This document shows, piece after piece, positions 4,519-21,127 of a stretch of 49,634 nucleotides of DNA (position 1 is its first letter; each line of letters opens with the position of its first letter). The notes below the pieces were generated by a model. It made no database searches. It saw only the letters and a program-made list of their open reading frames with translations, and was not told where the DNA came from. Source of the stretch: Nitrospirota bacterium (lineage in GTDB: Bacteria > Nitrospirota > Nitrospiria > Nitrospirales > Nitrospiraceae); NCBI GenBank assembly GCA_030682135.1, contig JAUXQT010000065.1:1-49634 (forward strand), in the 5' to 3' direction. A program made the position numbers and the translations under genes.

Positions 4519-4640
4519 AGCAGCTTCGGACTCATCAATCCCCTCACCCTATCGGAACCTTCACGCGCAGGTGGTAGCCTATCTGACTGGCTGGGCATAG
4601 CCGGAACCCACCTGCGATTGTTGAGGGAGGCACCATCATG

Positions 4641-4696
4641 GCGAGAGAAACAAATAGAGCGGGAGGGACGCCGGATGACGGCGGCCCTCCCGCTCT
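4641..4696 (-). terminator. Rho-independent terminator of the small lipoprotein pair
   Basis: Inverted repeat 4656-4673 / 4679-4696 with an 18-bp stem (one mismatch) and a 5-base loop (GATGA). Read on the minus strand the stem is followed by a T-rich tract (ATTTGTTTCTCTC, 4643-4655). It sits 14 bases after the stop codon of the 4711-5043 gene, so it ends that minus-strand transcript. Confidence 0.85.
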
Positions 4697-4710
4697 TGGA
4701 ACAGGATCAT

Positions 4711-5043
4711 CTACTTTAAAGCAGGACCAACTCCCGTGCCCTGCACATGGAATATAAATCCGTCTCCAGCGGGAGTCCAAAACCATCGTTCAGAGATTAT
4801 GACATCGGCCAATCGAGTACTGCCAGATTTCTGCAGCGCGGCCGTATAGGCTCTCTCAAAGCGATGGTTTTGATTGATGGGAATGAACCCCATCAACATG
4901 AACCCGCCGCTGTGCCCGTCCGCGATTCCCGTTAATCTTTCATTCGGCCCTGGAGGATCACCGGTAATCCGCACCTGACTGGAATGACAAGCCACTGTGG
5001 TCAGTAACAAAGCGGCACCAAGAAACAGGCTGATAAGTTTCAT
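4711..5043 (-). CDS. small lipoprotein, paralogue A
   Basis: A 110-residue predicted lipoprotein of unknown function. The signal peptide MKLISLFLGAALLLTTVAC ends in lipobox TVAC, and the next residues are not Asp, consistent with outer-membrane sorting. The mature part has GPNERLTGIADGHSGG, FMLMGFIPINQNHRFERAY and ISERWFWTPAGDGFIFHVQG. It aligns along its whole length with the neighbouring 5082-5408 product. A ribosome site AAAGGAGG precedes the ATG. Recognised family features are limited to the GF-PI-QN-RFE-AY pattern typical of TRL-like or related small lipoproteins. I do not know its job. Confidence 0.8.
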   Translation of the reverse strand: MKLISLFLGAALLLTTVACHSSQVRITGDPPGPNERLTGIADGHSGGFMLMGFIPINQNHRFERAYTAALQKSGSTRLADVIISERWFWTPAGDGFIFHVQGTGVGPALK

Positions 5044-5081
5044 GTATCCTCCTTTGCCCTCAATGTAAACCTATGGGGATG

Positions 5082-5408
5082 CTATTTATTCCCAACAGCG
5101 GTTCCCTGCACGGTAAAAATGTATCCGTTTAAGACGAGCGCCCAAAACCATTGTTCGGAAATAGTGATGTCGGTCAGCCGCGTCCCTCCACCTTTCTGAA
5201 CCGCTTCCGCATAGGCGTTCTCAAAGCGAGTGTTCTGGATAATCGGAATAAATCCGAACAACATGATACCCGTGCTCGACCCCTCGGTTTGACCAAGGGC
5301 TTTCTCATTCGGCCCTATGGATGCAGAAGGCAGCTTCATCGGCGTCGATTGGCACGCCGCAGTTGACAGCAGCAGACACACACCAAGAACAATGGACGCT
5401 ACTTTCAT
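5082..5408 (-). CDS. small lipoprotein, paralogue B
   Basis: A 108-residue predicted lipoprotein, signal peptide MKVASIVLGVCLLLSTAAC with lipobox TAAC. It is paralogous to the 4711-5043 product: both share GPNE, LFGFIPI-QN-RFE-AY-A--QK-G-TRL-D--ISE-WFW and a C-terminal FxVQGTxVG. It lies 38 bases upstream of paralogue A, with which it probably shares a transcript ending at the terminator at 4641-4696. GGAGGGAT precedes the ATG. The 229-base gap upstream separates it divergently from the halogenase-like gene, and probably carries both promoters. Function unknown. Confidence 0.8.
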   Translation of the reverse strand: MKVASIVLGVCLLLSTAACQSTPMKLPSASIGPNEKALGQTEGSSTGIMLFGFIPIIQNTRFENAYAEAVQKGGGTRLTDITISEQWFWALVLNGYIFTVQGTAVGNK

Positions 5409-5637
5409 GTATCCCTCCTTACAAAATATAGGATGAGGTACCGAGAGAATTAGGAAACCTGGCGACTAGCCACTCTGGCGCGGGACGCTATCACTACAGG
5501 ATTTTCCCGTCAAGCACCCTGCTTCCGCACCGGCCCGGCCTGTCAATAAGCCGCAAGATCATCCGCGCGCAACTAGCCATTGTTTCGCCTCTTGGGTATA
5601 CTCCGCCCCACTCGATTACCATGTCATGAGGTTGCCC

Positions 5638-6993
5638 ATGTCCTCCACCCCTTCCATAGGCGCGAATACGACTCCGACCCCATGCGACGTCCTCGTGATC
5701 GGAGGCGGGCCGGCAGGCTCGACCATTTCAGCCTTACTGGCTGAACAGGGCTGGAAGGTCCAGATCCTGGAGAAGGATCCGCATCCTCGCTTCCATATCG
5801 GCGAATCGCTGCTCCCCCAAACTCTCCCGATCCTGAAGCAATTGGGTGTGTTGGCCGACGTCGAGAAGATCGGAATCGTGAAATACGGTGCGGAGATGGT
5901 CTCGCATCGTTATGGCCGGACGCAGATGTTCTACTTTTCCAAAGCCTTCGATGAATCCCAGCCCTATGCCTTTGAGGTCAAACGATCCGAATTCGACGCC
6001 ATCCTCCTGAAGAATGCCGTCGCCAAAGGCACGCAGGTCCACGAAGGTGTTCGGGCCGAGCGCGTCGAGTTTCGCCCAGGGACGACGTCACTTGTGCATG
6101 CGCAAGACAAGACCGGAAATCCCATGACCTGGGAAACCAGATTCGTGGTCGATGCGAGCGGGCGCGACACGTTTCTCTCCGCACAACTGGGTGGGAAGCA
6201 ACGCAGCCAGACCCATAACAGCGCCGCTATCTTCGGTCACTTTGAGGGTGTCGGCAGACTGCCGGGCAAAGATGAAGGCAATATCACAGCCGGCTGGCTC
6301 GATCACGGCTGGTGCTGGTTGATCCCTTTCAAAGACGGAACCACCAGCGTCGGAGTCGTCTGCTGGCCCGACTACATCAAATCGCGCACGGTTCCGCTCG
6401 ATCAATTCTTATTGGACACCCTGAGCCAATCCCCCCCCATTGCGAAGCGGATGAGTCAGGCAAAACTCCTCACGCCCGTCTATGCGGCGGCGAACTTTTC
6501 CTATCGGCGAGAGACCATGTCGGGGGACGGCTACCTCATGGTCGGCGATGCCTTCGCCTTCATCGATCCGGTCTTCTCCAGCGGCGTCCATTTAGCGCTG
6601 AACAGTGCCGTGCTTGGCGCGAAAGTCGTCGAGGCCCACCTGCGCCATTCGCCGGACTATGCGCAACGGCTCCGCGAGTTCGAGCGGATGGTACGGCGGG
6701 CCATCAATACGTTTTCATGGTTTATCCACCGCTTTACCCAGCCAGCCTTTCAATCGCTCTTCGTCTCGACCAACCGGCCGCCGAAGATCGAACGGGCCGT
6801 CTTGTCGCTCTTGGCCGGCGACGTGTACGAACAGCGACGGGCCCGGTTCCCTCTTTTCCTCTTTAAGGTTTGCTATTACACGGTTTTCATGCTGAATTGG
6901 AAAGAAAATTGGGCCGTCTCCCGGCGAAGAAAACTCGGTACGTCGACGACGGTCACCGAGGTGCAGGATTACGCCGTGAAGCAACCGTCCTAG
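5638..6993 (+). CDS. flavin-dependent halogenase-like FAD oxidoreductase
   Basis: FAD protein of 451 residues resembling flavin-dependent halogenases. The dinucleotide motif GGGPAG (residues 22-27) is followed by RFHIGESLLP. A lysine in IGIVKYGAE (about Lys82) sits where the catalytic Lys of the phenol/pyrrole halogenase branch is expected. The WxWxIP signature is intact as WCWLIP (225-230), and VGDAFAFIDPVFSSGVH (302-318) matches the FAD/product-binding block. The WxWxIP motif distinguishes halogenases from plain monooxygenases, but relatives in lipid pathways can lack halogenating activity. ATG 5638 is preferred because GAGG lies 6 bases upstream; ATG 5626 is possible. It heads the plus-strand arm. 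Halogenation of an aryl head group, as in brominated xanthomonadins, is inferred. A flavin reductase partner is not in the window. Confidence 0.8.
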   Translation: MSSTPSIGANTTPTPCDVLVIGGGPAGSTISALLAEQGWKVQILEKDPHPRFHIGESLLPQTLPILKQLGVLADVEKIGIVKYGAEMVSHRYGRTQMFYFSKAFDESQPYAFEVKRSEFDAILLKNAVAKGTQVHEGVRAERVEFRPGTTSLVHAQDKTGNPMTWETRFVVDASGRDTFLSAQLGGKQRSQTHNSAAIFGHFEGVGRLPGKDEGNITAGWLDHGWCWLIPFKDGTTSVGVVCWPDYIKSRTVPLDQFLLDTLSQSPPIAKRMSQAKLLTPVYAAANFSYRRETMSGDGYLMVGDAFAFIDPVFSSGVHLALNSAVLGAKVVEAHLRHSPDYAQRLREFERMVRRAINTFSWFIHRFTQPAFQSLFVSTNRPPKIERAVLSLLAGDVYEQRRARFPLFLFKVCYYTVFMLNWKENWAVSRRRKLGTSTTVTEVQDYAVKQPS

Positions 6994-7015
6994 GTCAATC
7001 GACAGGAGCCGCCAC

Positions 7016-8062
7016 GTGGGACAGAGTCAGACTCAGACGGCCTTCCGAAAAGACCCTTCGCTCTCGGCCTCACTGGAGCTGCCCCGCTGTGTATTTCTTG
7101 AGACGGCACAGGTGAGCTCCTGGCTGAAGACACATCGCATGAATCCGCTTGCCATCGTCTCCTTTGGCAGCCACGTCCCCGATAACTTTCCCTGTCCCGT
7201 CATTCACCTCGACCTCCCGGAGCTCGCCGGCCCCCATCGCCTTGAGGTGTGGAGCACAACGGACCAGATCAAGACCTATCGTGACGAGGGATTTTCAGCC
7301 TCGGCCAGTGGACACGTGCTCTTTGGAACGGTGACCCTCACCGAACAGCCTGGCCAACCGATCGAGACCGTGACGGAGCGCGCCTATCGCCGGCTGTTCT
7401 CTTGCTTGCACGACTTGTCCTATCAACACATTTGGCGGATCTGGAACTATTTCCCCGACATCAATGGCTTCGCCAACGGGCTTGAACGCTATCAGGGATT
7501 TTGCCTGGGCCGGCACCGTGCCCTTGCAGACATGCTGACTGGCTTCCCCCACTCACTTCCCGCAGGCACCGCCGTGGGCACCAGATCGGGCCCGTTGCAG
7601 ATCTACTTCATTGCGGGAACCCTTCCCGCGACGCACCTCGGGAATCCCCGGCAAGTCCATGCCTACGAGTATCCCCAAGATTACGGACCCCGAAGTCCGT
7701 CCTTCGCGCGGGCGACCCTGTCTCGATCTGAGGCCCATTCGCAACTCTATATTGCCGGAACGGCAAGCGTGGTCGGACATACCAGCCAACATGTGGGACT
7801 TCCAAAGCAACAGACGCTCGAAACGATCCAGAACCTCAGAGTCTTGCTCCCGCATGCTGAGGACGAAGCCCACAGACATTTCTCAGGGCCACAGAGCAAA
7901 GCCCTGTATAAAGTCTATGTGCGGGATGCAGCCCATCTCTCCGAGGTCCGCGAGGCCCTCCGCAGCTTCCCGTTATCCTCGAATCAGGTTCTCTTCCTTC
8001 AAGGAGCGCTCTGCCGCAAGGAACTGTTAGTTGAAATCGAAGGGCTCATCACCTCGGACTGA
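7016..8062 (+). CDS. chorismatase / hydroxybenzoate synthase (FkbO/Hyg5/XanB2 family)
   Basis: A 348-residue protein with the chorismatase hallmark YIAGTASVVGHTSQHVG at residues 245-261, plus FCLGRHRALAD and RPRQVHAYEYPxxYGP-like blocks typical of this family with a RidA-like fold. Family members hydrolyse chorismate. XanB2 and Hyg5 types give 3-hydroxybenzoate (and 4-hydroxybenzoate for XanB2), while FkbO types give a dihydroxycyclohexadiene carboxylate. Start is GTG 7016 with CAGGAG 7 bases upstream, 22 bases after the halogenase-like gene. XanB2 supplies the aryl starter for xanthomonadin, so its position beside an aryl-polyene synthase fits the same role. Which product it makes cannot be read from the motifs with certainty. 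Confidence 0.85.
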   Translation: MGQSQTQTAFRKDPSLSASLELPRCVFLETAQVSSWLKTHRMNPLAIVSFGSHVPDNFPCPVIHLDLPELAGPHRLEVWSTTDQIKTYRDEGFSASASGHVLFGTVTLTEQPGQPIETVTERAYRRLFSCLHDLSYQHIWRIWNYFPDINGFANGLERYQGFCLGRHRALADMLTGFPHSLPAGTAVGTRSGPLQIYFIAGTLPATHLGNPRQVHAYEYPQDYGPRSPSFARATLSRSEAHSQLYIAGTASVVGHTSQHVGLPKQQTLETIQNLRVLLPHAEDEAHRHFSGPQSKALYKVYVRDAAHLSEVREALRSFPLSSNQVLFLQGALCRKELLVEIEGLITSD

Positions 8063-8138: not shown

Positions 8139-9098
8139 ATGTCCAGGGGTCGTGCCACACATCTCCATGCCGTCGATGGAAACGGACATGGGGCAATCGC
8201 TCCCCCGCAGTTTTACTTTACGATCGATTGCGATTGGGTGCCCGGCTCTCACTCAGGACTCGAGCTGCTCCTCAGCCTCTGCGATCGCTACCAGCTCAAG
8301 GGCACGATCTTCTTCGCGGGACGCTTCGCGGAAGCCTATCCGCATTTGGTCAGAAACTGTCACGACCGCGGACACCAGTTAGGCACGCATGGATGGGCCC
8401 ACGGCGGGCTGGAGGACGATGAAGATTTCCGCACGGCCAGTTACGAGCAGCAACGGGAATGGATCAGCCGCGCCACCGAGGCGGTCGAACAAGCCGCCGG
8501 GATTCGTCCAGTCGTATTCCGCGCGCCCAACCTCTCGATCGGTGAGACCACGCTCCGCGCCCTCGAACATGAAGGATATCGATGCGACTCTTCCGTTCCG
8601 GCCAGGCGATTCGACATGGGGCTTGGGCGAGTCCATTACCTGAAATATTTCTGGGCTCCACGAGATCCCTATCGGCCCTCACGGGAAAATTTGACGACAC
8701 CCGGTGAGGGGCCCTTGACCGAAGTCCCTCCCTCCTCCTGCCTGTTTCCGATCAACCTGGCGACGCTCCGCACGCTCGGCCTACCGATGATTCAACGCAT
8801 GATTCGCTGGATCGGGCGCCGATCACGCCACCTGGTCTTCTACTGTCATCCCTCGGAATTCGTCCTCGCGAAGCATCAAGTCTTTCCGGACTCCATGTCC
8901 AAGTGGAACCAGAAGGGCATGTGTCCGGCCAACCTCTCGCTGGTCGAAGATTTGATCGACCATGTCCTCGAGCGCGGCTATGCCCCCACGCATATGATGG
9001 AGGCACCGGCGCGTGAACTTGACTTGAGACCGCGAATGGGATTAAGAGCAAAGAACTTTCAGCCCAACCGGGCCTATCCAAAGGAGGGACAGCGATGA
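8139..9098 (+). CDS. NodB-type polysaccharide deacetylase
   Basis: Carbohydrate esterase family 4-like protein of 319 residues. The metal/base motif is FTIDCDW (Asp30 and Asp32) and the metal histidines are in GTHGWAHG (His84, His88). The arginine motif appears as FRAPNLS. No signal peptide or membrane segment is visible, so it likely acts on a cytoplasmic or membrane-interface substrate, as ArnD-like and PIG-L-like sugar-lipid deacylases do. ATG 8139 (MSRGRATHL) is preferred to an upstream ATG at 8031, which overlaps the chorismatase. Its stop codon overlaps the next ATG (ATGA at 9095-9098), so it is translationally coupled to the lipoprotein genes. The substrate is unknown. Confidence 0.83.
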   Translation: MSRGRATHLHAVDGNGHGAIAPPQFYFTIDCDWVPGSHSGLELLLSLCDRYQLKGTIFFAGRFAEAYPHLVRNCHDRGHQLGTHGWAHGGLEDDEDFRTASYEQQREWISRATEAVEQAAGIRPVVFRAPNLSIGETTLRALEHEGYRCDSSVPARRFDMGLGRVHYLKYFWAPRDPYRPSRENLTTPGEGPLTEVPPSSCLFPINLATLRTLGLPMIQRMIRWIGRRSRHLVFYCHPSEFVLAKHQVFPDSMSKWNQKGMCPANLSLVEDLIDHVLERGYAPTHMMEAPARELDLRPRMGLRAKNFQPNRAYPKEGQR

Positions 9099-9505
9099 AG
9101 CAGTTGCTATCTGGAATTCTTGTGGCATGTCTGGCTGTCGTGATCGTGACAGGCTGCCGAGGTGCAGGGCAAATCTACAATGTCAAAGAAGCGCCGATTG
9201 CGACATCGGCAGGTAAAGAGCTGACCTTGGATCAGGTCGGCAAGGCGATCATGGATGCAGGGATCGGACTCAAATGGATCATGGTGGTCACCAAGCCAGG
9301 GCAGATCGTCGCCACGCAAAATGCCCGAAGCCACACCGCCATCGTCGATATTGCGTACGACACCAAAACGTACAGCATGACCTATAAAGATAGCGTGAAC
9401 TTAAACTACAACGCCGAGAAACAAACCATCCACGAGGCATACAGCGGCTGGATTCGCAATCTTGATAACGCCATCAAGGGCCGGCTCGCTGCGGCAGGAA
9501 TGTAA
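9095..9505 (+). CDS. pigment-cluster lipoprotein, tandem copy 1
   Basis: A 136-residue predicted lipoprotein with signal peptide ending in lipobox VTGC. The mature domain has GKELTLDQVGKAIMDAGIGL then KWIMVVTKPGQIVAT, an HTAIVDIAYD-TYSMTYKDS strand pair and the C-terminal SGWIRNLDNAIKGRL helix. The same domain repeats in the next two genes, so this is a tandem family. GGAGG precedes the ATG, which overlaps the deacetylase stop. I do not recognise a functional name. Small outer-membrane lipoproteins of this shape could bind or shuttle a lipid or pigment, but that is only suggested by position. Confidence 0.82.
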   Translation: MKQLLSGILVACLAVVIVTGCRGAGQIYNVKEAPIATSAGKELTLDQVGKAIMDAGIGLKWIMVVTKPGQIVATQNARSHTAIVDIAYDTKTYSMTYKDSVNLNYNAEKQTIHEAYSGWIRNLDNAIKGRLAAAGM

Positions 9506-10117: not shown

Positions 10118-10546
10118 ATGATTCGACTCATAAAAAACGGCGCAACTGTACTTGCATTGATTGTTGCAATGACTGGATGCGGCGCTCCAATTTTGAATGT
10201 GAAGGATGCCCCGGTTAAGACGCTATCGGGCAAAGAGCTGGCACTTGATCAGGTTACCAAGGCCATCGTGTTGGCAGGAATGGGATTGAAATGGGAAATG
10301 ATTGTAGCCTCACCAGGCCATATCATCGCCACGCTAAACCTGCGTGACCATCAAGCAGTCGTCGATATCCCCTATAGCACTAGCACATATAGCATTAGAT
10401 ATAAGAGCAGCGTGAATTTGACGGTTACTCCAGGCGATGAGAAGGTTCCGGGAGCCCCGCCGTATTTGATTCATGGCAATTATAACGGTTGGATAGAGAA
10501 CCTCGATAACGCCATCCGCACTCAATTCATTGCCGTTGGGCAGTAG
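10118..10546 (+). CDS. pigment-cluster lipoprotein, tandem copy 3
   Basis: A 142-residue predicted lipoprotein with lipobox MTGC. It carries the same domain as the two preceding genes: ILNVKDAPVKTLSGKELALD, AIVLAGMGLKWEM, PGHIIATLNLRDHQAVVDI and NYNGWIENLDNAIRTQF. A loop with VTPGDEKVPGAPP replaces the copy 2 loop. GAGGAGG precedes the ATG, 27 bases after copy 2. Its last 20 coding bases overlap the 3' end of the convergent glycosyltransferase gene (10527-10546), so the two arms of the cluster meet without any spacer. Confidence 0.8.
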   Translation: MIRLIKNGATVLALIVAMTGCGAPILNVKDAPVKTLSGKELALDQVTKAIVLAGMGLKWEMIVASPGHIIATLNLRDHQAVVDIPYSTSTYSIRYKSSVNLTVTPGDEKVPGAPPYLIHGNYNGWIENLDNAIRTQFIAVGQ

Positions 10547-11330
10547 ACTTCCCTTCTCTTCTCTGCCGACTACCTTCACATAGACTTTTCCCCGTGAGTG
10601 CTCGATAAAGCCCTACGGGATACATGCCTCGCGAGAGGAGCTTCCCCCCTACCATCCAGGTGATCTTCACGATGTCCCATACAGGTCTGAAATGGCTGGG
10701 GCTTGGACCCATCCGAGGCGCAACCCCGACGGCGATCATGTTGATCGGAGTACCCACTCGACTCGCTTCAATCAGGACTTCGCTTTCAAACACGAAACTT
10801 CGCGCCTTCCCATGTGCGAGATCAATATTTCTCAACAATGTCGCCGGATAGAGCCGGAACCCGGATTGCGTATCGTCGATCCATCGTCCTGCCGACCATG
10901 AGATCCAAAAATCCGCAACCCGATTGGCGCCATACCGCCAGAAAGATGTCTTCCGCTTGTCGCGCGGGCGGATTCCGACAAGAAACGCATCGGGAGCATT
11001 CACGGAAGCCGTAAGAAAGATCGGAATCTCTTCCGGCGCATGTTGCCCGTCTGCATCGAGCGTGATGATGCCAAGGGCTCCGTGGGCCAAGGCATGCTCG
11101 AATCCTCGCTGGAGGCTGCCAGCCTTTCCCCTGTTCTCTTCATGGTGTATCAGGGTGATATCCAGACCGGCCAGGGCACGAGCCGTGCCGTCGATTGAGC
11201 CGTCGTCCACGACGATGACGTTCGGACATTGCTGCCGCGCGCGCATCGCCACATCGCGCACCGTTTCCGCCTCATTGTAGGCCGGGATCACGACCCAGTA
11301 TGAACGGGCGAGGTCGCGCAGCCGCGTCAC
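10527..11330 (-). CDS. GT2 glycosyltransferase, dolichol-phosphate mannosyltransferase-like
   Basis: A 267-residue family 2 glycosyltransferase with VVIPAYNEAETV (residues 13-24), VDDGSIDGT (41-49) and the DXD motif LDADGQH (Asp92, Asp94). It resembles soluble DPM1-type enzymes and has no obvious membrane anchor. GT2 enzymes are common in aryl-polyene clusters, where they may glycosylate the head group or lipid anchor. The GTG start at 11330 forms a GTGA overlap with the ketoreductase stop, so it is the last gene of the minus-strand arm. The sugar donor and acceptor are unknown. Confidence 0.85.
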   Translation of the reverse strand: MTRLRDLARSYWVVIPAYNEAETVRDVAMRARQQCPNVIVVDDGSIDGTARALAGLDITLIHHEENRGKAGSLQRGFEHALAHGALGIITLDADGQHAPEEIPIFLTASVNAPDAFLVGIRPRDKRKTSFWRYGANRVADFWISWSAGRWIDDTQSGFRLYPATLLRNIDLAHGKARSFVFESEVLIEASRVGTPINMIAVGVAPRMGPSPSHFRPVWDIVKITWMVGGKLLSRGMYPVGLYRALTGKSLCEGSRQRREGKSTAQRQ

Positions 11331-12052
11331 GCCATGCCTCCGTTGACGCCGATGATCTGGCCTGTAATATAACCGGCGCCCTCGGACGCGAGGAACGACA
11401 CAAGCGCCGCAACGTCATCCGGCGTACCCATTCGTTTCATCGGCACCAACGTGACGACCTGCTCCGCCTTGAACGCACCGCTTGTCGCGGGCGATTCGAT
11501 CAAACCGGGAGCCACCACATTGACAGTAATGCCTCGTGATGCCACCTCGATCGCCAACGACTTGCTGGCTCCATGCAGGCCTGCCTTCGCGGCGGCATAG
11601 TTGGTCTGCCCGCGGTTGCCTGTCACGCCGGCCAGCGATGAAATCGAGACGATCCGCCCCCAGCGGGTCCCGATCATCGGCAGCAACAGCGGCTGCGTGA
11701 CGTTGAAGAATCCGTTCAGCGAAAGATCGATGACCCTCGTCCATTGTTCGTGAGACATCCCTGCCATCGGCGCATCGTCGTGGGCTCCGGCATTGTTGAC
11801 GAGGACTTGGATCGGCCCATCCTTCAGCAGGGCATTGAGTGCCTGCCTCGTGGCAGACTCATCGGTCAGGTCGAAACAGGAAACCGACGCCGACCCGTCT
11901 GTATGCCGAATCTTCTCCGCCACCTGCTCAGCCGATTCAGGATGCCGATGGGCATGCACGATGACGGCATAACCATCCGCCGCCAGCCGCTCGGCAATGG
12001 CCGAACCGATGACCCCACTGCCTCCGGTCACGAGGGCGCGTTTCCGCATCAT
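11327..12052 (-). CDS. 3-oxoacyl-ACP reductase, FabG/ApeQ-like
   Basis: Short-chain dehydrogenase of 241 residues. The cofactor motif is VTGGSGVIG (residues 8-16), followed by NNAG (86-89), the catalytic serine in SISS (about Ser139) and YAAAK (Tyr152, Lys156). In the aryl-polyene context it would reduce the beta-keto group of each ACP-bound extension product, as ApeQ does in the E. coli type system. It overlaps the dehydratase stop by ATGA and the glycosyltransferase start by GTGA. A housekeeping FabG is less likely because it sits inside the cluster. Confidence 0.88.
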   Translation of the reverse strand: MMRKRALVTGGSGVIGSAIAERLAADGYAVIVHAHRHPESAEQVAEKIRHTDGSASVSCFDLTDESATRQALNALLKDGPIQVLVNNAGAHDDAPMAGMSHEQWTRVIDLSLNGFFNVTQPLLLPMIGTRWGRIVSISSLAGVTGNRGQTNYAAAKAGLHGASKSLAIEVASRGITVNVVAPGLIESPATSGAFKAEQVVTLVPMKRMGTPDDVAALVSFLASEGAGYITGQIIGVNGGMA

Positions 12053-12492
12053 GATGGCTCACGCTTTATAAATATCGAGGCCCGCCCCGTCATCATGTTG
12101 TGGCCTCCGGATGAGATCGCAAACTGATACATGAAACTCTCGCCGCTGTCGAACAGATGCGAGGCCTCAATCGTGAGTTCTCCTGGACAGTCGTCAAGAC
12201 GGTCTACCGACAACACCACATCCTTCACCCCGCCGACATAGCCGATCAGCCCCTCCGTAGACCGCTCTCGATTCAGAAGCCCCACATGGACCCCCATCGC
12301 CTGTGCCGCATATTCCAGCCCGGTCACCGCGTCGAGGCGCCCGCCTTGCCGCAGCGGATTCGCCCCATCGCGATGCGATTGCGTGCGGCATCGAATCGTC
12401 GTGGCATCCCACGAGTCCACGAGATCGATCAGCCGCATCGCCCCGGCATGGGGAAGAAACCTGCTCAGTTCTTCTTTGCTCAATTGCGGCAT
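12049..12492 (-). CDS. hotdog 3-hydroxyacyl-ACP dehydratase, ApeP-like
   Basis: A 147-residue single-hotdog protein with the family's FLPHAGAMRLID motif at residues 13-24, giving His16 as the likely catalytic base. A TGLEYAAQAMGVH helix follows, as in FabA/FabZ relatives. In aryl-polyene systems ApeP works with a second dehydratase (ApeI type) to form the conjugated double bonds; the ApeI-like partner is at 18305-18631. The ATG at 12492 overlaps the chain-length factor gene by 13 bases, and its TGA overlaps the ketoreductase ATG. Confidence 0.85.
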   Translation of the reverse strand: MPQLSKEELSRFLPHAGAMRLIDLVDSWDATTIRCRTQSHRDGANPLRQGGRLDAVTGLEYAAQAMGVHVGLLNRERSTEGLIGYVGGVKDVVLSVDRLDDCPGELTIEASHLFDSGESFMYQFAISSGGHNMMTGRASIFIKREPS

Positions 12493-13280
12493 CGATCGAT
12501 TTCCAATACGAGCTGCTGACTCTCAAGCAGACTCACGATCACCTTCTGCGAACCGCCTGTGGCAATGGCTTTCAAGAGCGGGAGCGATCGGGCCGCAGGA
12601 TTGCCCAGTCGCACCTGCTCCAATGCAAGGTCTTGCAAATGGCTCGCCGGCTCTTGATCTGTCTCTCTGAGATGCAGCTGCATGGTCGCGAGCGCGGCGT
12701 CTGACGGCGGAGCGAACAGGAGAGCCACGGCAAAACCCGCCGAGATCGGACGCGCTTCGTTGAGCGGAGCGGGCACCGCCAAATCGTAGGCGACCAGCAA
12801 CAGAGGGCGTTGCTCTACGTGGACGAAGGTCACGGCTTCCAGCAGACCGGCCGCGAACGAGTCGTCGTAGCAGGACAGTGCCGTCGACGACTGCTGACAG
12901 GTTGTGGCGATTCCCCAATAGCCGGAGGGCGTGTTGTGGACCGATTGATGAAAGAGTGTGGGCGAAATCTCCCGCTCAGGGGTCGCCAAGGTGCGGCAGA
13001 GTGTATCGAGCACCCCCATTTCGCCCCCCGAGGATGCAAAGACCGTGGGCACCTCACGGGGACCCAGGCCAGATTGGGCAATGGCTTCTTGTGCAACCTG
13101 AACCGCCCACCGGACACAGTCGCTGCTTCTCCGCCGTTCGTTCGGTGGCAACAACGCCGCTTCAGGATCGGGCATCTCACCCGGTTGAAACGAACCATGC
13201 CCTGCCAGCACGGCACGGCCGGTCTCCCAACCGGCGAGACCAGTGGCAAGCAGGCCGATACCCTGAATCGAAACCTTCAT
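12480..13280 (-). CDS. ketosynthase chain-length factor, ApeC-like
   Basis: A 266-residue truncated thiolase-fold protein resembling ApeC, the non-catalytic partner of the aryl-polyene ketosynthases. It keeps the SVHNTPSGYWGIAT block (about residues 115-128) and SCYDDSFAAGLLEA, but the segment that would hold the catalytic cysteine reads TCQQSSTAL with no intact TACSSS-type motif and no matching histidine pair. It is therefore a chain-length factor, not an independent ketosynthase. The ATG at 13280 is coupled to the ketosynthase by TGATG; a GTG at 13283 is the alternative. It should dimerise with the 13280-14494 product. Confidence 0.85.
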   Translation of the reverse strand: MKVSIQGIGLLATGLAGWETGRAVLAGHGSFQPGEMPDPEAALLPPNERRRSSDCVRWAVQVAQEAIAQSGLGPREVPTVFASSGGEMGVLDTLCRTLATPEREISPTLFHQSVHNTPSGYWGIATTCQQSSTALSCYDDSFAAGLLEAVTFVHVEQRPLLLVAYDLAVPAPLNEARPISAGFAVALLFAPPSDAALATMQLHLRETDQEPASHLQDLALEQVRLGNPAARSLPLLKAIATGGSQKVIVSLLESQQLVLEIDRCRN

Positions 13281-14494
13281 CACAACTTTCCCAGAATTAG
13301 GCTGCAGTTGTTTCCGCCAAACCCAAAAATATTGCTCGCCACGCAGGAGAGCGAACCGATCTGGTTCTCACGAAGGATTCGACTCTTCAACGAAGGATCG
13401 ACGCGCGCACAATTGAGCGTGCCAGGAATCAATCCCTCGGTGAGACAGAGCGCGGAAATGACGGCCTCGGTGATGCCGGCCGCACCTAACGTATGGCCGG
13501 TCCAGCCTTTGGTTGAACTGCAGGCAGGCCGCGCGCCAAATATGCTATAGACGGCTTTATCCTCGACTGAGTCGTTGGCCCTTGTGGCCGTCCCGTGTAA
13601 ATTTACATATTCGATGTCTTCAGGGCGAAGCCCGGCCCTGGCCAGCGCATCCCGGATTGCGCGAATGGCACCGGCGCCTTCCGGATGGGGATGCGACATG
13701 TGATAGCCATCCGTGCTCTCTCCATAACCAAGGAGCGCCACCGCGCCACGTCTGCCGACCAACTCGCTGGATTCCAATAAGGCAAACCCCGCAGCCTCGC
13801 CCAGCGACAACCCATCGCGATCTTCGTCGCAAGGACGGCAGGGACCGGTCGAGAGCAGCTGCAGCGCAGAGAACCCATACAGGGTGGTCAAACAAAGGCT
13901 GTCGACGCCACCGACGATGGCGGCATCGCAGAGACCAGCTCGCAGCAAACGATCGGCCGTCGCAAAGACCTTCGCGCTGGAGGAACAGGCCGTCGAAACC
14001 ACCATGGCAGGCCCGCGCAACCCGAGACAGGCCTGCACGAAGTGGCCCAGCGAAAACATGTTGTGGGTATAGCGATAACGCGAGGTATACCAGTCCGGGA
14101 GCGAACCGGCTTGGCTCCTGGCCTGATAAGCATGCTCCGTCTCCAGAATGCCTGAGGTACTGGTCCCCATGACGACAGCGACACGATGAGCGCCATAACG
14201 CTGCTTCGCTTCCGCCACCGCGACCATGAACCCGTCCTGCTGCAGGCCGAGCCAGGCCAGCCGATTGTTGCGGCAATCGAATCGCTCCAATTCATTGCCG
14301 AGCGAAAAGTCTTCAAGGCCCTCGACGCGTCCAATGTAGGTCTTGAGCGTGACATCTTCGAAGTCACAGGGTTTCAACCCCGACCGCCGCCCGCGCAAGG
14401 CCTGAAGAACCGGTCCCACTCCACGGCCATTAGCTGTGACGAGGGTATAGGCGGTCAGGGTCAATGGCGTGATCGGTTGCACGTTAGCTGACAT
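13280..14494 (-). CDS. beta-ketoacyl-ACP synthase (aryl-polyene KS)
   Basis: A 404-residue FabF/KAS II-type condensing enzyme with the complete triad: Cys170 in STACSSS, His300 in NLHGTATRAND and His334 in KGWTGHTLGAAG. The FGFGGNN motif lies near the C-terminus. It would condense malonyl-ACP with the growing aryl-polyenoyl-ACP, pairing with the chain-length factor encoded directly downstream. The ATG at 14494 overlaps the exporter gene by 11 bases. It is the only catalytically complete ketosynthase in the cluster, whereas characterised aryl-polyene clusters usually carry two. Confidence 0.9.
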   Translation of the reverse strand: MSANVQPITPLTLTAYTLVTANGRGVGPVLQALRGRRSGLKPCDFEDVTLKTYIGRVEGLEDFSLGNELERFDCRNNRLAWLGLQQDGFMVAVAEAKQRYGAHRVAVVMGTSTSGILETEHAYQARSQAGSLPDWYTSRYRYTHNMFSLGHFVQACLGLRGPAMVVSTACSSSAKVFATADRLLRAGLCDAAIVGGVDSLCLTTLYGFSALQLLSTGPCRPCDEDRDGLSLGEAAGFALLESSELVGRRGAVALLGYGESTDGYHMSHPHPEGAGAIRAIRDALARAGLRPEDIEYVNLHGTATRANDSVEDKAVYSIFGARPACSSTKGWTGHTLGAAGITEAVISALCLTEGLIPGTLNCARVDPSLKSRILRENQIGSLSCVASNIFGFGGNNCSLILGKL

Positions 14495-16805
14495 GAGAAT
14501 CCTGCCCGGCTAAGAATCCCGCAAAGAGCAAACAGGTCAACGACCCACAGGCTGCCGTCAGGCCGATCGCATGCAGCACAGGAATGGTCGAACAGGCGAG
14601 GACTCCGAACACCAGCACGGTCGTGGTGCTACAGACCAGCAACCCAAAGACGGTCCTCTGCCGCTCCTCACCTTGGTCCTCCACACGATTGAAGAACAGC
14701 GCGTAATCGAGCCCCAAGCCGACCACCAGGAGTAACGTCGCGACATGAAACAGGGAGAGCGATTCACCGGACAGATTGAGAAGACCCACCACGACGATAA
14801 GCCCGGCGACAATCGGGACGAGCACACGCCAGAGCTGGGAAAGCGATTTCAATCCGATGGCTAAGGCCCCCGCAATGGCGATCGTTCCCCACCCGAGCAA
14901 ATGCACCGTTCTGTTTCGATAGTCCCTCATCAGCCGGTTGGACTCTTCCTTGAGATCCACATAGGCAACCGCCGAATCACCCCAGCCAGCCACTGTTGTG
15001 TTCAATCCCTGCCGATCGACCACCCCGCGCAGCGGCGCAATGGCCACCCAACGCCCGTGATGTTCCAGCATCAACGCCTCGATCTTCAGGCCTAACGGCG
15101 TGCCACGGAACAGGTCCCGATCGACCAATGGTTGCGTCCGAGCCTCCGAGACCTCGCCCAGGAATGGTTCGAACAGCCCTGGCGCAAACGGCAATCCCTT
15201 CACCGCCTCGCCGAGCCGATCTTTCAAATCGACAGAATTTGGCAAGGCCTGCTGCCGCTCTCGCTGCACACGATGGCTGGGCAAGTAGCGCGACACCAGG
15301 TCGTATCCCTCCAAAGCGCCTGCGTCCCGAAGACGATCCAGTTGTGGCATCACCGCTTCACTCCGCTCCAACAGATCTTCTTGCGTCGCCGCTTCGATCA
15401 CCAGGAGATCCCGCATATCCGGTGCACCGAGCGCACGTCGCAACTGCTGGTCGAGTTGCTTCTTCTCCTCCGATACCGGACTAATCTTCGCCAGATCTAC
15501 TTCCCACAGTGGCGTATCTGACCATATCAGCACGATTGTCGCAAGAACGACGGCCACCGGCACCACCATCTTCGCCTTCGACAAATACGCCATCGGCCTC
15601 AGCAGATCGGTCCGGATCTCCCGTGGGACAAAACCGGCAGGAACACAGACCGGCAATACCCATCGAGTCACCAACGCGGCAGTACCTAAACCCGCCAGAG
15701 CGAAGAGTCCCAGTTGCGCCAACGCGGGAAACCCAGCCAGCAGCAGGGAGGAAAATCCGATCGCGGTTGTGAGCACCCCGAGCCGCATCGTCGGCCAGAT
15801 CGCCCGCATGATTACTGGAGCAGAAGCCTGCTTATTCAAATGGCTGAATAAATGGATCGGGTAATCGTCGACCACACCGAGCAACGTGATCCCGAATCCT
15901 AATGTAATGCCGTGCACAAACCCGAACCAACTGTTCACCGCGACCATGCCGGCCAGAATCCCGCTTGAGAGCGGAATCAAACTGAGAAACACCAGCGTCA
16001 GCGATCGATAGCTGGCGTAAAGAAACAGAAAGACCGGTGTCGCCGCCACGACCGACAGCCACCAGACTTCCCGCTCGATCGTCCGCTGGATCTCGACCGT
16101 AAAGACCCCCGGACCGCTCATCAATAAACGGGCGGATGGTGATGGCCCATCGGCCACCCGATGAAACGAGGCCCGGATATCCCGCTGAATCGCTTCCTGC
16201 GCATCGGCATCGAACCCCGCGGCTTTGGTTTCAACGACCAACAAAGCGCGCTGGAGATCGGCCGACATCCAGACTCCGCGATGCGTGGCCGGCGATTCCC
16301 ATCCAGCCCAGGATTGGAGGATCCCGAGAAATTCTCCGGTTGGATCGGTCGGAATATAGGCCTTGATCATCGGGGCGAGAGGAGAACGTAGTTCATCGAG
16401 TCGTTGCTCAAGGGAGGCATGCAGCGAATCGGCAGAAAACGTCTCGGCCGTCACCGTCCGGCTCAGGAGATAACGCGCGCGAAACAAGACCTGCCGCTCT
16501 TCGGACGACAAGACCTGCATGCCGTTGCCCACGAAATCGATCCGGGCATGCCCTCGCAGCCCTTCGCCCAACGTCTTGCTGAGCCCGGCCAGTTCATCCG
16601 GCGGCGCCCCCTCGATGGCCAGCAGCAGCATCCGGCCGGCCAGGCCCGAGCGCACCTGCGTCAGCAACAACCGCTGCGTCGCCGTAGTGCCTTCGGGGAG
16701 CAGGTCACCCAGTTCGCTATGGACAGACAAACTGGTCCCGGTGAACCAGACGGCACCGGTGATAAGGGCGACCCAGACGAGAACTGGCCACCAGGCGGAT
16801 TTCAT
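14484..16805 (-). CDS. MMPL/RND-type exporter of the aryl-polyene cluster
   Basis: A 773-residue membrane protein with two MMPL-like halves. One N-terminal helix precedes a periplasmic loop of about 220 residues; then a group of helices includes the LGFGITLLGVVDDYPIHLF segment. The second half repeats the pattern, ending in helices with LLLVVGLGLDYALFFNR. The paired acidic GxxxDY motifs match proton-coupled RND relatives. Aryl-polyene and related lipid clusters carry such an exporter next to a LolA-like protein. The ATG forms an ATGA overlap with the LolA-like gene. It probably moves the finished lipid-linked pigment out of the inner membrane. Confidence 0.88.
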   Translation of the reverse strand: MKSAWWPVLVWVALITGAVWFTGTSLSVHSELGDLLPEGTTATQRLLLTQVRSGLAGRMLLLAIEGAPPDELAGLSKTLGEGLRGHARIDFVGNGMQVLSSEERQVLFRARYLLSRTVTAETFSADSLHASLEQRLDELRSPLAPMIKAYIPTDPTGEFLGILQSWAGWESPATHRGVWMSADLQRALLVVETKAAGFDADAQEAIQRDIRASFHRVADGPSPSARLLMSGPGVFTVEIQRTIEREVWWLSVVAATPVFLFLYASYRSLTLVFLSLIPLSSGILAGMVAVNSWFGFVHGITLGFGITLLGVVDDYPIHLFSHLNKQASAPVIMRAIWPTMRLGVLTTAIGFSSLLLAGFPALAQLGLFALAGLGTAALVTRWVLPVCVPAGFVPREIRTDLLRPMAYLSKAKMVVPVAVVLATIVLIWSDTPLWEVDLAKISPVSEEKKQLDQQLRRALGAPDMRDLLVIEAATQEDLLERSEAVMPQLDRLRDAGALEGYDLVSRYLPSHRVQRERQQALPNSVDLKDRLGEAVKGLPFAPGLFEPFLGEVSEARTQPLVDRDLFRGTPLGLKIEALMLEHHGRWVAIAPLRGVVDRQGLNTTVAGWGDSAVAYVDLKEESNRLMRDYRNRTVHLLGWGTIAIAGALAIGLKSLSQLWRVLVPIVAGLIVVVGLLNLSGESLSLFHVATLLLVVGLGLDYALFFNRVEDQGEERQRTVFGLLVCSTTTVLVFGVLACSTIPVLHAIGLTAACGSLTCLLFAGFLAGQDSHVS

Positions 16806-17437
16806 TTGGATGGTCCCCGGCGGAGCGTCATCACCGAACGGTCGCCATCAGGCGCTCGGATGGCGATGGTCGTCAGGCGCCCGTCCGATCCGGACAACAG
16901 CAGATAGTCGACCATGGATTTTCCGGCCGGATCGTAGGGACGGAGCAGCAATGTCCACTGTCGGCTGGTGCCGTCAACGGTGGTTTCATACACGTTCTTC
17001 AGCTGTGCCACATCGCCCGTGAGCGTCGCCCGAAAGGCTTCGACAAAGCTGCGTAAGGCCGGATAGTCTTCCAGTGAAATAGTTTTCTTCACATGCTTGC
17101 GTTCACTCTCGAAGGTCACCCGGTCTCCCTCGATGAGGTACCGTTCCCGGTACGGCTCCAGCACGTCCTTCTCCAGCGTCGACGGGGGCGTGAAGCGCAA
17201 CAGGCCACGCACGATCAAGGGCTCGGTGAGCAATGAAGAATAGGTCGCTTCTTCAAACGACACCGAGGGCTCCCGACCATCTTTCAGCGAGGCCACGACC
17301 TGCTCAACCGTCCAGACGTTACCCGAACGATCGCCGGGAGAAAGGGAACTCTCCGCAGTTACCTCAGCGACATTTCCTGCCAACAGCAGGACGCTAAGAA
17401 AAAAGATCCACCTAGTTTGAGTCGTTCCAAAATTCAT
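16802..17437 (-). CDS. LolA-like periplasmic carrier
   Basis: A 211-residue exported protein with a signal peptide (hydrophobic IFFLSVLLLAGNVAEVTAES) and a LolA/LolB-like antiparallel sheet pattern: an opening VEQVVASLKDGREPSVSFEE, RGLLRFTPPSTLEKDV, YLIEGDRVTFE and a C-terminal LTTIAIRAPDG. This is the 'outer-membrane lipoprotein carrier' subtype found in aryl-polyene clusters, not the housekeeping LolA. ATG 17437 (MNFGTTQTRW) lies inside the acyltransferase gene, overlapping it by 26 bases; an upstream ATG at 17494 is less likely. It probably ferries the lipidic product to the outer membrane. Confidence 0.82.
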   Translation of the reverse strand: MNFGTTQTRWIFFLSVLLLAGNVAEVTAESSLSPGDRSGNVWTVEQVVASLKDGREPSVSFEEATYSSLLTEPLIVRGLLRFTPPSTLEKDVLEPYRERYLIEGDRVTFESERKHVKKTISLEDYPALRSFVEAFRATLTGDVAQLKNVYETTVDGTSRQWTLLLRPYDPAGKSMVDYLLLSGSDGRLTTIAIRAPDGDRSVMTLRRGPSK

Positions 17438-18308
17438 AGAAGTTAAACCAGTTGTCTGGGGCACGGCGGCAAAATGCCTCAAGGCGATCGGCATACCGTT
17501 GCGTCCACTGTTGAAGGTCTATAGCTCGCTGATCGGACGACAGCTCCATCCCTTCGCTAAAGGATTCGAGATAGACCTCATAGCGGTTCCCCCCCCGGTA
17601 CAGCCCGAAGAACAGGACCACCGGAGCATGGACGACGCGGGCCAATCGCATCGCGCCGGTTGGAAACCTCGCCTGCCCCCCCAAGAAGGTACAGGCCAGC
17701 GACTGATCCTGCTGCATCACACGATCGCCCATAATCCCGACGACACCGCCTCTATCCAAACATTCTTTGACTTGCAGCATCGTGCCGGCTCCGCCAACCT
17801 GAATGACCGTCTCAGCGACGGCGGGATTCAACTCCTGAATCAGGTGACGAATCAAGGGCGCGTTCTGCTCATCCATCAGGACGCGGATCTCGATGTGCTG
17901 ACGGGACAGTCCAACGGCCCGCACCACTTCAAAGCTTCCAAGATGCGACCCCAGGAGCACACAGCCACGGCCTTTCGCCAACTCCCGGTCCAGCACCTCT
18001 AACCCATGGATCTCAATATCGAACAGATCGAACCGGCTGCGCAGAAAATAGACACGGTCCAGGATCGTTGCGGCAAAGGCAAGATAATGGCGACAGAGAT
18101 CGCGCCACGTCACCGGTCGACCGAACAGCCGCTCGCGATACTGCCCGATCGCACGTCTGGCAGACGCTGAGGCCAATAAAAAGTACAGACAGATCGGATG
18201 GAGCAAGCCCCGAGCGGTCGGACGACCCAGCGATTGCGCGATCCAAGCCATCAGCCGGATGGCCGTCGGACTCCCGCGCTCCTGCTGCTGTCGCCAGGCG
18301 AGGCTCAC
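17412..18308 (-). CDS. LpxL/HtrB-like acyltransferase
   Basis: A 298-residue lysophospholipid/lipid A-type acyltransferase. The catalytic HX4E motif is SHLGSFE with His122 and Glu127. The N-terminal segment (VSLAWRQQQERGS) and hydrophobic LLHPICLYFLLAS match the aryl-polyene subtype. It would transfer the polyenoyl chain from ACP to a membrane lipid or glycolipid. The GTG at 18308 forms a GTGA overlap with the dehydratase stop and gives the expected family N-terminus; an ATG at 18386 would add unlikely residues inside the upstream gene. Confidence 0.86.
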   Translation of the reverse strand: MSLAWRQQQERGSPTAIRLMAWIAQSLGRPTARGLLHPICLYFLLASASARRAIGQYRERLFGRPVTWRDLCRHYLAFAATILDRVYFLRSRFDLFDIEIHGLEVLDRELAKGRGCVLLGSHLGSFEVVRAVGLSRQHIEIRVLMDEQNAPLIRHLIQELNPAVAETVIQVGGAGTMLQVKECLDRGGVVGIMGDRVMQQDQSLACTFLGGQARFPTGAMRLARVVHAPVVLFFGLYRGGNRYEVYLESFSEGMELSSDQRAIDLQQWTQRYADRLEAFCRRAPDNWFNFYEFWNDSN

Positions 18309-18631
18309 GTCCGTTCCATGGGCGCCGTTGCGCCAGGCATGAACTCGATGGTGCCGGACGCCACGAGGCGTGCATCCACCCGGCAAGAAAATGTGGCCTG
18401 CCCGGCTCCCTCTTCCTCCACACGAATGGTCACAGCCTCGCCCGGCCGGAGGGGAGAAGAAAATTTCACCGTCGGCAGGCCCGTCACCACCGATGAAACA
18501 GCTAATCCCCGACGCAGGGTGTCGAGCACTTCGTTCAGCAGCACCACGCCGGGCACGACGGGATAGCCGGGGAAATGCCCCGCCAGCGATGGATGATCAT
18601 GGCCGATGGAGAGCACCCGCTCATGTACCAT
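18305..18631 (-). CDS. hotdog dehydratase, ApeI/FabZ-like
   Basis: A short 108-residue FabZ-type hotdog protein with GHFPGYPVVPGVVLL (His19 as the catalytic base). It is shorter than housekeeping FabZ and lacks its usual C-terminal part, like ApeI. It would act with the 12049-12492 protein to dehydrate 3-hydroxyacyl-ACP. ATG 18631 (MVHERVLSIGHDHP) overlaps the ligase gene by 11 bases, so it is translationally coupled. An ATG at 18811 lies wholly inside the ligase gene and is rejected. Confidence 0.83.
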   Translation of the reverse strand: MVHERVLSIGHDHPSLAGHFPGYPVVPGVVLLNEVLDTLRRGLAVSSVVTGLPTVKFSSPLRPGEAVTIRVEEEGAGQATFSCRVDARLVASGTIEFMPGATAPMERT

Positions 18632-19985
18632 GGCCCAGCCCTGCCAGCCATTGCCGGGCCAGCTCACGTACCGATTCCTGTGGTAATTTTCCGGTAGCGT
18701 TGCGAGGAAGACTGGGCACACAGACCAAGGGACGAGGGAGAAACACCGGATCGATGTGGGTCCGTAACGCGCGTTGAATCTCTTCGCTGGTTTTTCCAGG
18801 AGCCACGACAAAGGCCATCAGCCTGGTGACGAAGTCGGAGCCCTCTTCGGGCAAGAAGAACACACCGTCCTGTACCCCCTCGACCTCCAGCAGTTTTTGA
18901 TTCAAGTCGCCGAGCGAGACCCTATGGCCTGCGACATTGATCTGGTCCGCTTCCCGGCCATGCACAACGAACAGCCCCTGCGCATCGACAGTAATGCGAT
19001 CCGGCACCAGTACCGGTGCGGGAAGGTAGTCCGTCTCTACGGTCCACCCCCTCTCGCTGGATTGAAGCCGCACTCCGTCTAAGGGCCTCCAGGAATCGCC
19101 TGCCGTCGTCTGCCGCTCCGCAACACTGCCGGCTTCGGCAAATCCGAAAATTTCATGCACCTCCGTGTGAAAGTGCCGTTCAGCTTCTTGGGCCAAGCCC
19201 TGAGAAAGGGGAGCGGTGGCAGAGAGGATCAACCCGACCGGCGGCATTCTCACGCCTTCGGTCATACAGGCGCGGAGATGCAAGGGTGTGGTCACGAGAA
19301 TCCTTCGCCCCTCCACGTCGGCCAAGGCGCTCAGGATGTCGGCCGGGAAGAGCGGTCGCCCGGCATGCATGACCAATCCATGCATGATGGGCAACATGAC
19401 GGAGGCTTCAAGGCCGAACATATGTTGATGCGGAACGGTGGCCACCACCGAGGCGCGATCGCCGCTTTTGATGCCAAGCCTGGATCCGGTTGCGTGAGCC
19501 ACGGCCGTCAACGCCCCCCACGTTTTCTTGTTGGGCATCGGCTGACCTGTGCTCCCGGAGGTGAAGGCGATCGCCACAACTTGATTCAAGGGGACCAGCG
19601 GAATCTCGTTTGGCCAGGGAGCCAGGCCCTGTCGCTGTTGCATCGCGACAGACTCGATCCCGTCGATCGCATCGTCACGATCGGTCAAGGCGTAACTCTC
19701 GGGGTAATCGCCGGCGATGCGGCGAAGGGTCTGGACCGCCCGGCTTTGAGGCAGCAACGTCAACTGCCGCCGGAGAATGGCTGCGGCAAATCCCACCAGA
19801 AACTCGTAGCGGCTCGTGGCGAGATTGATGACCGTGAGCCGATTGGGCAAGGATTCAGCGAGTCGAACGACGTCGGATACAAACTGCCGCGCCGTGCGTG
19901 AACCATCCGGCTCCAGGGCCAGCACATCGTCCGGACTGTAGGGGCCGATCAAAGGGGTATCGTGCATGGCCCCACCTGCGGTCAC
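18621..19985 (-). CDS. AMP-dependent aryl-acid:ACP ligase, ApeH-like
   Basis: Adenylate-forming enzyme of about 454 residues. The phosphate loop is FTSGSTGQPMPNKK (about 141-154), with HQHMFGLEAS and FGFAEAGSV blocks and a C-terminal NATGKL segment holding the usual lysine. It should activate the hydroxybenzoate starter with ATP and load it onto the ACP encoded just upstream. The GTG at 19985 makes a GTGA overlap with the ACP stop; the ATG at 19967 (MHDTPLIGPYS), with AGGTGG upstream, is an equally plausible start and gives 448 residues. The substrate is inferred from the chorismatase in the other arm. Confidence 0.85.
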   Translation of the reverse strand: MTAGGAMHDTPLIGPYSPDDVLALEPDGSRTARQFVSDVVRLAESLPNRLTVINLATSRYEFLVGFAAAILRRQLTLLPQSRAVQTLRRIAGDYPESYALTDRDDAIDGIESVAMQQRQGLAPWPNEIPLVPLNQVVAIAFTSGSTGQPMPNKKTWGALTAVAHATGSRLGIKSGDRASVVATVPHQHMFGLEASVMLPIMHGLVMHAGRPLFPADILSALADVEGRRILVTTPLHLRACMTEGVRMPPVGLILSATAPLSQGLAQEAERHFHTEVHEIFGFAEAGSVAERQTTAGDSWRPLDGVRLQSSERGWTVETDYLPAPVLVPDRITVDAQGLFVVHGREADQINVAGHRVSLGDLNQKLLEVEGVQDGVFFLPEEGSDFVTRLMAFVVAPGKTSEEIQRALRTHIDPVFLPRPLVCVPSLPRNATGKLPQESVRELARQWLAGLGHGT

Positions 19986-20260
19986 TTCGTGCGGTTCTTC
20001 ACAATCGCGTTGGCCAACGCCCGCAGGGAGGAAAAGATGGCTTTGATGTCCGGATCGCTCGACTTGAGCTGATAGCCGTAGGTTTGTGAAATAGCCAGCG
20101 AGAGCTCCAACGCATCGATCGAGTCGAGGCCGAGCCCGTCTCCGAACAGCGCTGCGTCAGGCTGGATCGTAGCCGGATCGATCTTCAGCTTGAGCGTCTG
20201 GACGATCAACCTCGACAGCTCTTGCTCGAGCGGCTTTGATTCTGAATGCTCCATATCCAT
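19982..20260 (-). CDS. acyl carrier protein, ApeE/ApeF-like
   Basis: A 92-residue ACP with the phosphopantetheine site GLGLDSIDALEL (Ser47). Helix 1 is preceded by a short acidic tail. It starts one base after the methyltransferase stop codon (TAG, G, ATG), and its stop overlaps the ligase GTG. Characterised aryl-polyene clusters encode two ACPs; only this one is visible here. No phosphopantetheinyl transferase gene is in the window, so a chromosomal one must act on it. Confidence 0.9.
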   Translation of the reverse strand: MDMEHSESKPLEQELSRLIVQTLKLKIDPATIQPDAALFGDGLGLDSIDALELSLAISQTYGYQLKSSDPDIKAIFSSLRALANAIVKNRTK

Positions 20261-21053: not shown

Positions 21054-21127
21054 GATGGGCCTCTGGAAACCCGTGGTTCGCACTCTTGTAGCAGGACTCT
21101 CGGGTACGGGCAAGAGGGCGCGGCCGA

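Follow-up and report, generated by a model that had tools for sequence, protein, structure and literature searches.

Aryl polyenes fed by a chorismatase have been described before in Xanthomonas, Lysobacter and Azoarcus. In the arcuflavin cluster of Azoarcus sp. BH72 the halogenase gene arcA adjoins the chorismatase gene arcB; ArcB has a YjgF/Rid-like C-terminal half and produces both 3- and 4-hydroxybenzoate (3-HBA and 4-HBA), ArcT activates 3-HBA, and feeding of 4-fluoro-3-HBA labels arcuflavin (PMC3949708). The xanthomonadin cluster of Xanthomonas likewise holds a chorismatase gene, xanB2, together with a halogenase gene, and the 4-HBA made by XanB2 feeds ubiquinone as well (cited in PMC3949708). 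The yellow-pigment cluster of Lysobacter enzymogenes OH11 contains a chorismatase homologue (ORF5) that provides 3-HBA for an aryl polyene: deletion of the xanB2 homologue lowers pigment by ~90%, and addition of 3-HBA restores it (PMC3691225). In Hyg5, an acid protonates the chorismate methylene and an intramolecular nucleophilic attack leads via an arene oxide to 3-HBA while pyruvate is released (PMC7170507). Aryl-polyene clusters have also been predicted in Nitrospira (PMC9765116), the genus and cluster class considered here; what that paper's account of Nitrospira clusters provides is their presence, and the starter enzyme and gene anatomy come from the present analysis. Our literature search found no paper naming a chorismatase together with Nitrospira.

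We analyzed a window of 49,634 nucleotides (the whole stretch of DNA, contig JAUXQT010000065.1 of a Nitrospirota bacterium). The source genome (3.75 Mb in 113 contigs, 99.96% complete) is assigned to Nitrospira by its named matches, the closest being Nitrospira sp. RSF8 (92% identical). By sequence and predicted fold, the open reading frame at 7016-8062 is a full-length chorismatase, and we consider it very probable that this enzyme supplies, directly from chorismate, the hydroxybenzoate starter of an adjoining pathway to a yellow aryl-polyene pigment. The gene is part of a locus of ~15.5 kb made up of two convergent operons, and its own run on the + strand comprises the following features.

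5626 to 6993, + strand: halogenase-like gene, flavin-dependent (arcA-like; PF04820, E = 1.7e-27), 22 nt upstream of the chorismatase gene
7004 to 7008, + strand: Shine-Dalgarno-like AGGAG, read from the sequence, 7 nt ahead of the chorismatase GTG
7016 to 8062, + strand: chorismatase gene (XanB2/ArcB-like; PF21168, PDB matches, AlphaFold model), proposed source of the 3-HBA starter
8139 to 9098, + strand: polysaccharide-deacetylase-family gene (arcN-like; PF01522, E = 2.1e-20)
9095 to 9505, + strand: gene for a small lipoprotein-like protein, closing the run and sharing 4 nt with the end of the deacetylase gene

This run converges on a complete aryl-polyene operon, which extends on the - strand from ~21.1 to 10.5 kb.

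10527 to 11330, - strand: family 2 glycosyltransferase (arcE-like; PF00535, E = 5.7e-23)
11327 to 12052, - strand: 3-ketoacyl-ACP reductase (arcH-like; PF13561, E = 5.9e-52)
12049 to 12492, - strand: dehydratase-like small protein at the conserved arcI position (weak ApeP-like match, E = 0.21)
12480 to 13283, - strand: ketosynthase N-terminal-domain/CLF-like protein (arcJ-like; PF13723, E = 1.7e-30)
13280 to 14494, - strand: ketosynthase (arcK-like; PF02801, E = 3.7e-31; PF00109, E = 9.9e-28)
14484 to 16805, - strand: MMPL exporter (arcP-like; PF03176, E = 1.1e-14)
16802 to 17494, - strand: LolA-like carrier (arcQ-like; PF19574, E = 1.5e-20)
17412 to 18386, - strand: LpxL-like acyltransferase (arcR-like; PF03279, E = 4.6e-20)
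18305 to 18811, - strand: FabA/FabZ-like dehydratase (arcS-like; PF07977, E = 9.8e-05, just under the Pfam cut-off; FabZ NCBIfam, E = 1.9e-07)
18621 to 19985, - strand: AMP-ligase (arcT-like; PF00501, E = 1.1e-16), proposed 3-HBA loader
19982 to 20260, - strand: acyl carrier protein (arcV-like; PF00550, E = 4e-09)
20262 to 21113, - strand: methyltransferase (arcM-like; PF01209, E = 1.2e-26)

The locus thus holds the xanthomonadin/arcuflavin-type gene set (ligase, acyl carrier protein, ketosynthase and ketosynthase-like protein, ketoreductase, dehydratase, acyltransferase, LolA, MMPL, family 2 glycosyltransferase and chorismatase) when compared with Table 1 of PMC3949708, the gene at the arcI position being represented by a weak profile match only. 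The Azoarcus arc genes have about the same content (reductase, ketosynthase pair, glycosyltransferase, exporter, LolA, acyltransferase, dehydratase, ligase, acyl carrier protein, methyltransferase and the deacetylase arcN) and the same adjacency of halogenase and chorismatase, but are distributed over two unlinked loci and accompanied by a dialkylresorcinol cluster, whereas here a single locus is found, and the Pfam-annotated genes around it include none for dialkylresorcinols. As in Xanthomonas, the chorismatase gene lies in an aryl-polyene cluster that also has a halogenase gene; the Lysobacter cluster, in contrast, lacks one. The coordinates and the gene arrangement agree with the preliminary description, which had placed the chorismatase between halogenase-like and deacetylase genes facing a polyene operon.

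The 348-residue chorismatase reading frame starts at a GTG codon and matches PF21168 (FkbO_Hyg5-like_N, E = 1.4e-35). Its sole sequence matches in the PDB are Hyg5 (5ag3, E = 2.5e-42; 5a3k) and FkbO (4bps, E = 1.5e-32), in alignments spanning residues 71-345; identity to characterized enzymes is ~30-34%. An AlphaFold model built with 36 sequences (pLDDT 88.3, pTM 0.88) superimposes best on 4bps (Z = 41.1, 320 residues) and 5ag3 (Z = 40.7), with unrelated folds following at Z ~13 or less, and the C-terminal half of the model (201-348) is matched by YjgF/Rid proteins, as published for ArcB. The catalytic glutamate is kept (Glu340, corresponding to Glu334 in Hyg5) and is invariant in the 36 sequences, and the nearby Arg and Glu positions are kept as well. 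The initial assignment to the chorismatase family from the motif YIAGTASVVGH (residues 245-255) is thereby confirmed, and comparison with Hyg5, which had been proposed as a check, and with FkbO revealed no loss of catalytic residues. Our enzyme shares with Hyg5 and FkbO the fold, the catalytic Glu and the overall motif set; it differs in sequence (~30% identity), in having Ala186 at the position of Hyg5 Gly173, and in gene context, which is that of actinobacterial macrolides for the two structures.

The halogenase-like protein contains the motifs GGGPAG (at 26), WCWLIP (at 229) and FIDPVFSSG; GxGxxG and WxWxIP, both present, are what we take to be the signature of flavin-dependent halogenases. 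Adjacency of halogenase and chorismatase genes recurs in Nitrospira, Gallionellaceae and Azonexaceae, with relatives including Azonexus, Accumulibacter and Dechloromonas. The deacetylase reading frame opens at 8031 with a probable ATG near 8139, and deacetylase genes also adjoin the chorismatase in clusters without an adjacent halogenase. The lipoprotein-like gene at 9095-9505 has no Pfam match and is conserved in Nitrospira clusters; between 9095 and 10546 three small paralogues of this lipoprotein-like kind follow one another in tandem (43-65% identity), where two relatives (G017 and G009) have a single copy. In five relatives (G009, G011, G013, G017 and G022) the halogenase gene is preceded by a gene for a beta-barrel outer-membrane protein, and no recognizable copy or remnant of it was found upstream of the halogenase gene in our window (4520-5626). 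Scans for promoters and terminators returned chance-level signals only.

A genome-wide search located one chorismatase in the source genome. Neither aromatic ammonia lyases (PF00221; the same search was positive in 5 of 14 controls) nor UbiC (PF04345; the E. coli control was positive) could be detected genome-wide. A search for AMO, meant to address comammox, had no match, but the controls had none either, so that it is uninformative. Chorismatase and aryl-polyene ligase are present in an identical 12 of 32 Nitrospira genomes and both absent from the other 20 (Fisher p = 4e-9, an optimistic value given that the genomes are related). The synteny of the locus is kept in 20 or more Nitrospira and also in Gallionellaceae and Azonexaceae relatives; given this conservation across many further Nitrospira genomes, neither the reading frame nor the gene arrangement is due to chance. 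The sole chorismatase, the two negative searches and the exact co-occurrence with the ligase support the earlier suggestion of a self-contained precursor supply that does not run through an ammonia lyase.

Our main reading rests on the protein family, the predicted fold and the kept residues, on the finding of one chorismatase only in the genome, on the lack of a detectable ammonia lyase or UbiC, and on co-occurrence and synteny; from these we infer enzymatic activity, product ratio, halogenation and final pigment structure. A XanB2/ArcB-type chorismatase would convert chorismate into 3-HBA, probably with some 4-HBA, and pyruvate. By analogy with the described clusters, the AMP-ligase (18621-19985) would then activate 3-HBA onto the acyl carrier protein of the cluster, and the ketosynthase, CLF-like, ketoreductase and dehydratase set would elongate it into an aryl polyene. 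The neighboring flavin enzyme may add a halogen to the ring, or to an intermediate after loading, and either could be O-methylated by the methyltransferase. The pigment ester would finally reach the outer membrane via the acyltransferase, LolA and MMPL proteins.

The subtype of the chorismatase, and with it the starter, can be approached from marker residues, for which we rely on PMC7170507. The markers given there for Nat-hyg5 are Gly164, Gly231 and Cys318, next to the catalytic Glu325; Glu325 equals Glu334 in Hyg5, and the resulting offset of 9 places the markers at Gly173, Gly240 and Cys327, in agreement with the Hyg5 sequence. The corresponding residues in our enzyme are Ala186, Gly248 and Cys333, with Glu340 as the catalytic residue. 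A Hyg5-type (CH-II) enzyme forming 3-HBA alone would be in line with Gly248, Cys333 and the kept glutamate, that is with two of three markers, but the third is replaced by alanine, as in enzymes from proteobacterial aryl-polyene clusters. Alanine occupies this position in 49 of the 57 proteins used for our tree, among them all those from Nitrospira and Azonexaceae, and glycine occurs in Hyg5, in FkbO and in the proteins from actinobacteria and Caballeronia. A plasmid search had returned actinobacterial and Caballeronia relatives, which serve as outgroups, and no XanB2 among its matches. In the tree, which contains neither XanB2 nor ArcB, the CH-I/II proteins of actinobacteria group apart from the others (support 100/99), and the Nitrospira clade lies beside the Gallionellaceae/Azonexaceae aryl-polyene clade with moderate support (81/88). 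Our protein also scores below the curated cut-off of the FkbO/Hyg5 subfamily model (TIGR04444, 201 versus 325 bits), and we regard the Hyg5 type as possible though rather unlikely. A XanB2/ArcB-type enzyme releasing both 3-HBA and 4-HBA appears the likeliest subtype, and we hold it with moderate confidence because Ala186 is shared with the proteobacterial aryl-polyene enzymes and because of the placement in the tree; the GTAS motif does not tell the Hyg5 type from the XanB2 type.

The two remaining readings change the starter itself. As a hydrolase of the FkbO type (CH-I), the enzyme would release 3,4-dihydroxycyclohexa-1,5-diene carboxylate, a non-aromatic starter. The fold is the same (4bps, Z = 41.1), but the hydrolytic type is unlikely because FkbO has alanine at the second and third marker positions (Ala244 and Ala331), where our enzyme has Gly248 and Cys333, and the gene context is an aryl-polyene cluster rather than a macrolide one; taken as an account of the locus, we give this reading hardly any weight. 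The direct hydrolysis of chorismate in the preliminary description has to be corrected accordingly, since 3-HBA formers use the arene-oxide route and only the FkbO type, whose markers are absent, hydrolyzes (PMC7170507). Alternatively, the enzyme could mainly form 4-HBA (CH-IV-like, or a skewed XanB2), giving a para-hydroxyphenyl head group or serving another use of 4-HBA. In a genome without detectable UbiC the chorismatase may be the sole source of 4-HBA, and whether 3-HBA or 4-HBA is made cannot be predicted from an alignment alone (PMC3949708). Yet the closest characterized cluster, that of Azoarcus, starts from 3-HBA, and the distribution of the gene follows that of the aryl-polyene ligase (none of the 20 ligase-less genomes in the genus has it), so that we judge a dominant 4-HBA product improbable. 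We retain the XanB2/ArcB-type enzyme with 3-HBA as the proposed starter.

Related genomes display variation at and around this gene pair. In one of them (G011), the halogenase-chorismatase segment (L020 4073-6509, versus 5626-7730 in our window) is another allele: up to ~7.7 kb of the window it is mostly 81-97% identical to G022 and 48-77% identical to the window, and beyond this point, which lies inside the chorismatase gene, its identity to the window is 91-96%. This looks like homologous exchange of the head-group genes with a breakpoint within the chorismatase gene. In four relatives (G002, G011, G013 and G017) a second chorismatase (~50% identical) is encoded at a separate locus, not in the aryl-polyene cluster, with genes for a methyltransferase and a deacetylase after it (L027 5109-8344, L028 9120-12417, L029 7408-10727 and L031 2770-6016; the methyltransferase was Pfam-tested in three). 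It is conceivable, though we think it rather doubtful, that the halogenase-chorismatase pair is an exchangeable cassette tuning a halogenated 3-HBA-headed aryl polyene and, at the same time, that the second triplet, which relatives have and the source genome lacks, produces another aryl compound that is as yet undescribed. A divergent Nitrospira aryl-polyene cluster type (L023-L026) has no halogenase-like gene beside the chorismatase, and a DUF1207 gene lies between both operons in L023-L025. A genome from another genus of the same family (G032) has an aryl-polyene cluster (L113 1008-12779) with a deacetylase, in which the family 2 glycosyltransferase is fused to a second glycosyltransferase-like domain. 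No chorismatase, ammonia lyase or UbiC was recognizable in this genome; the PF21168 search was positive in no control but was positive in the window's genome. Because this aryl-polyene cluster lacks a recognizable supplier, another aryl source would exist in the family, and it could in principle act in the Nitrospira cluster too.

The chemistry and logic of such a pathway are known, as are the arcA-arcB arrangement and aryl-polyene clusters in Nitrospira, and the conceptual gain is modest. Less expected leads are the cassette exchange, the additional triplets that relatives carry elsewhere in their genomes and the related cluster for which no aryl supplier could be recognized. Taken together, our analysis would extend the chorismatase-fed type of aryl-polyene pathway, with genome-wide support, from Proteobacteria to Nitrospirota, and it predicts that the pigment of cluster-bearing Nitrospira has a 3-HBA head, which may be halogenated.
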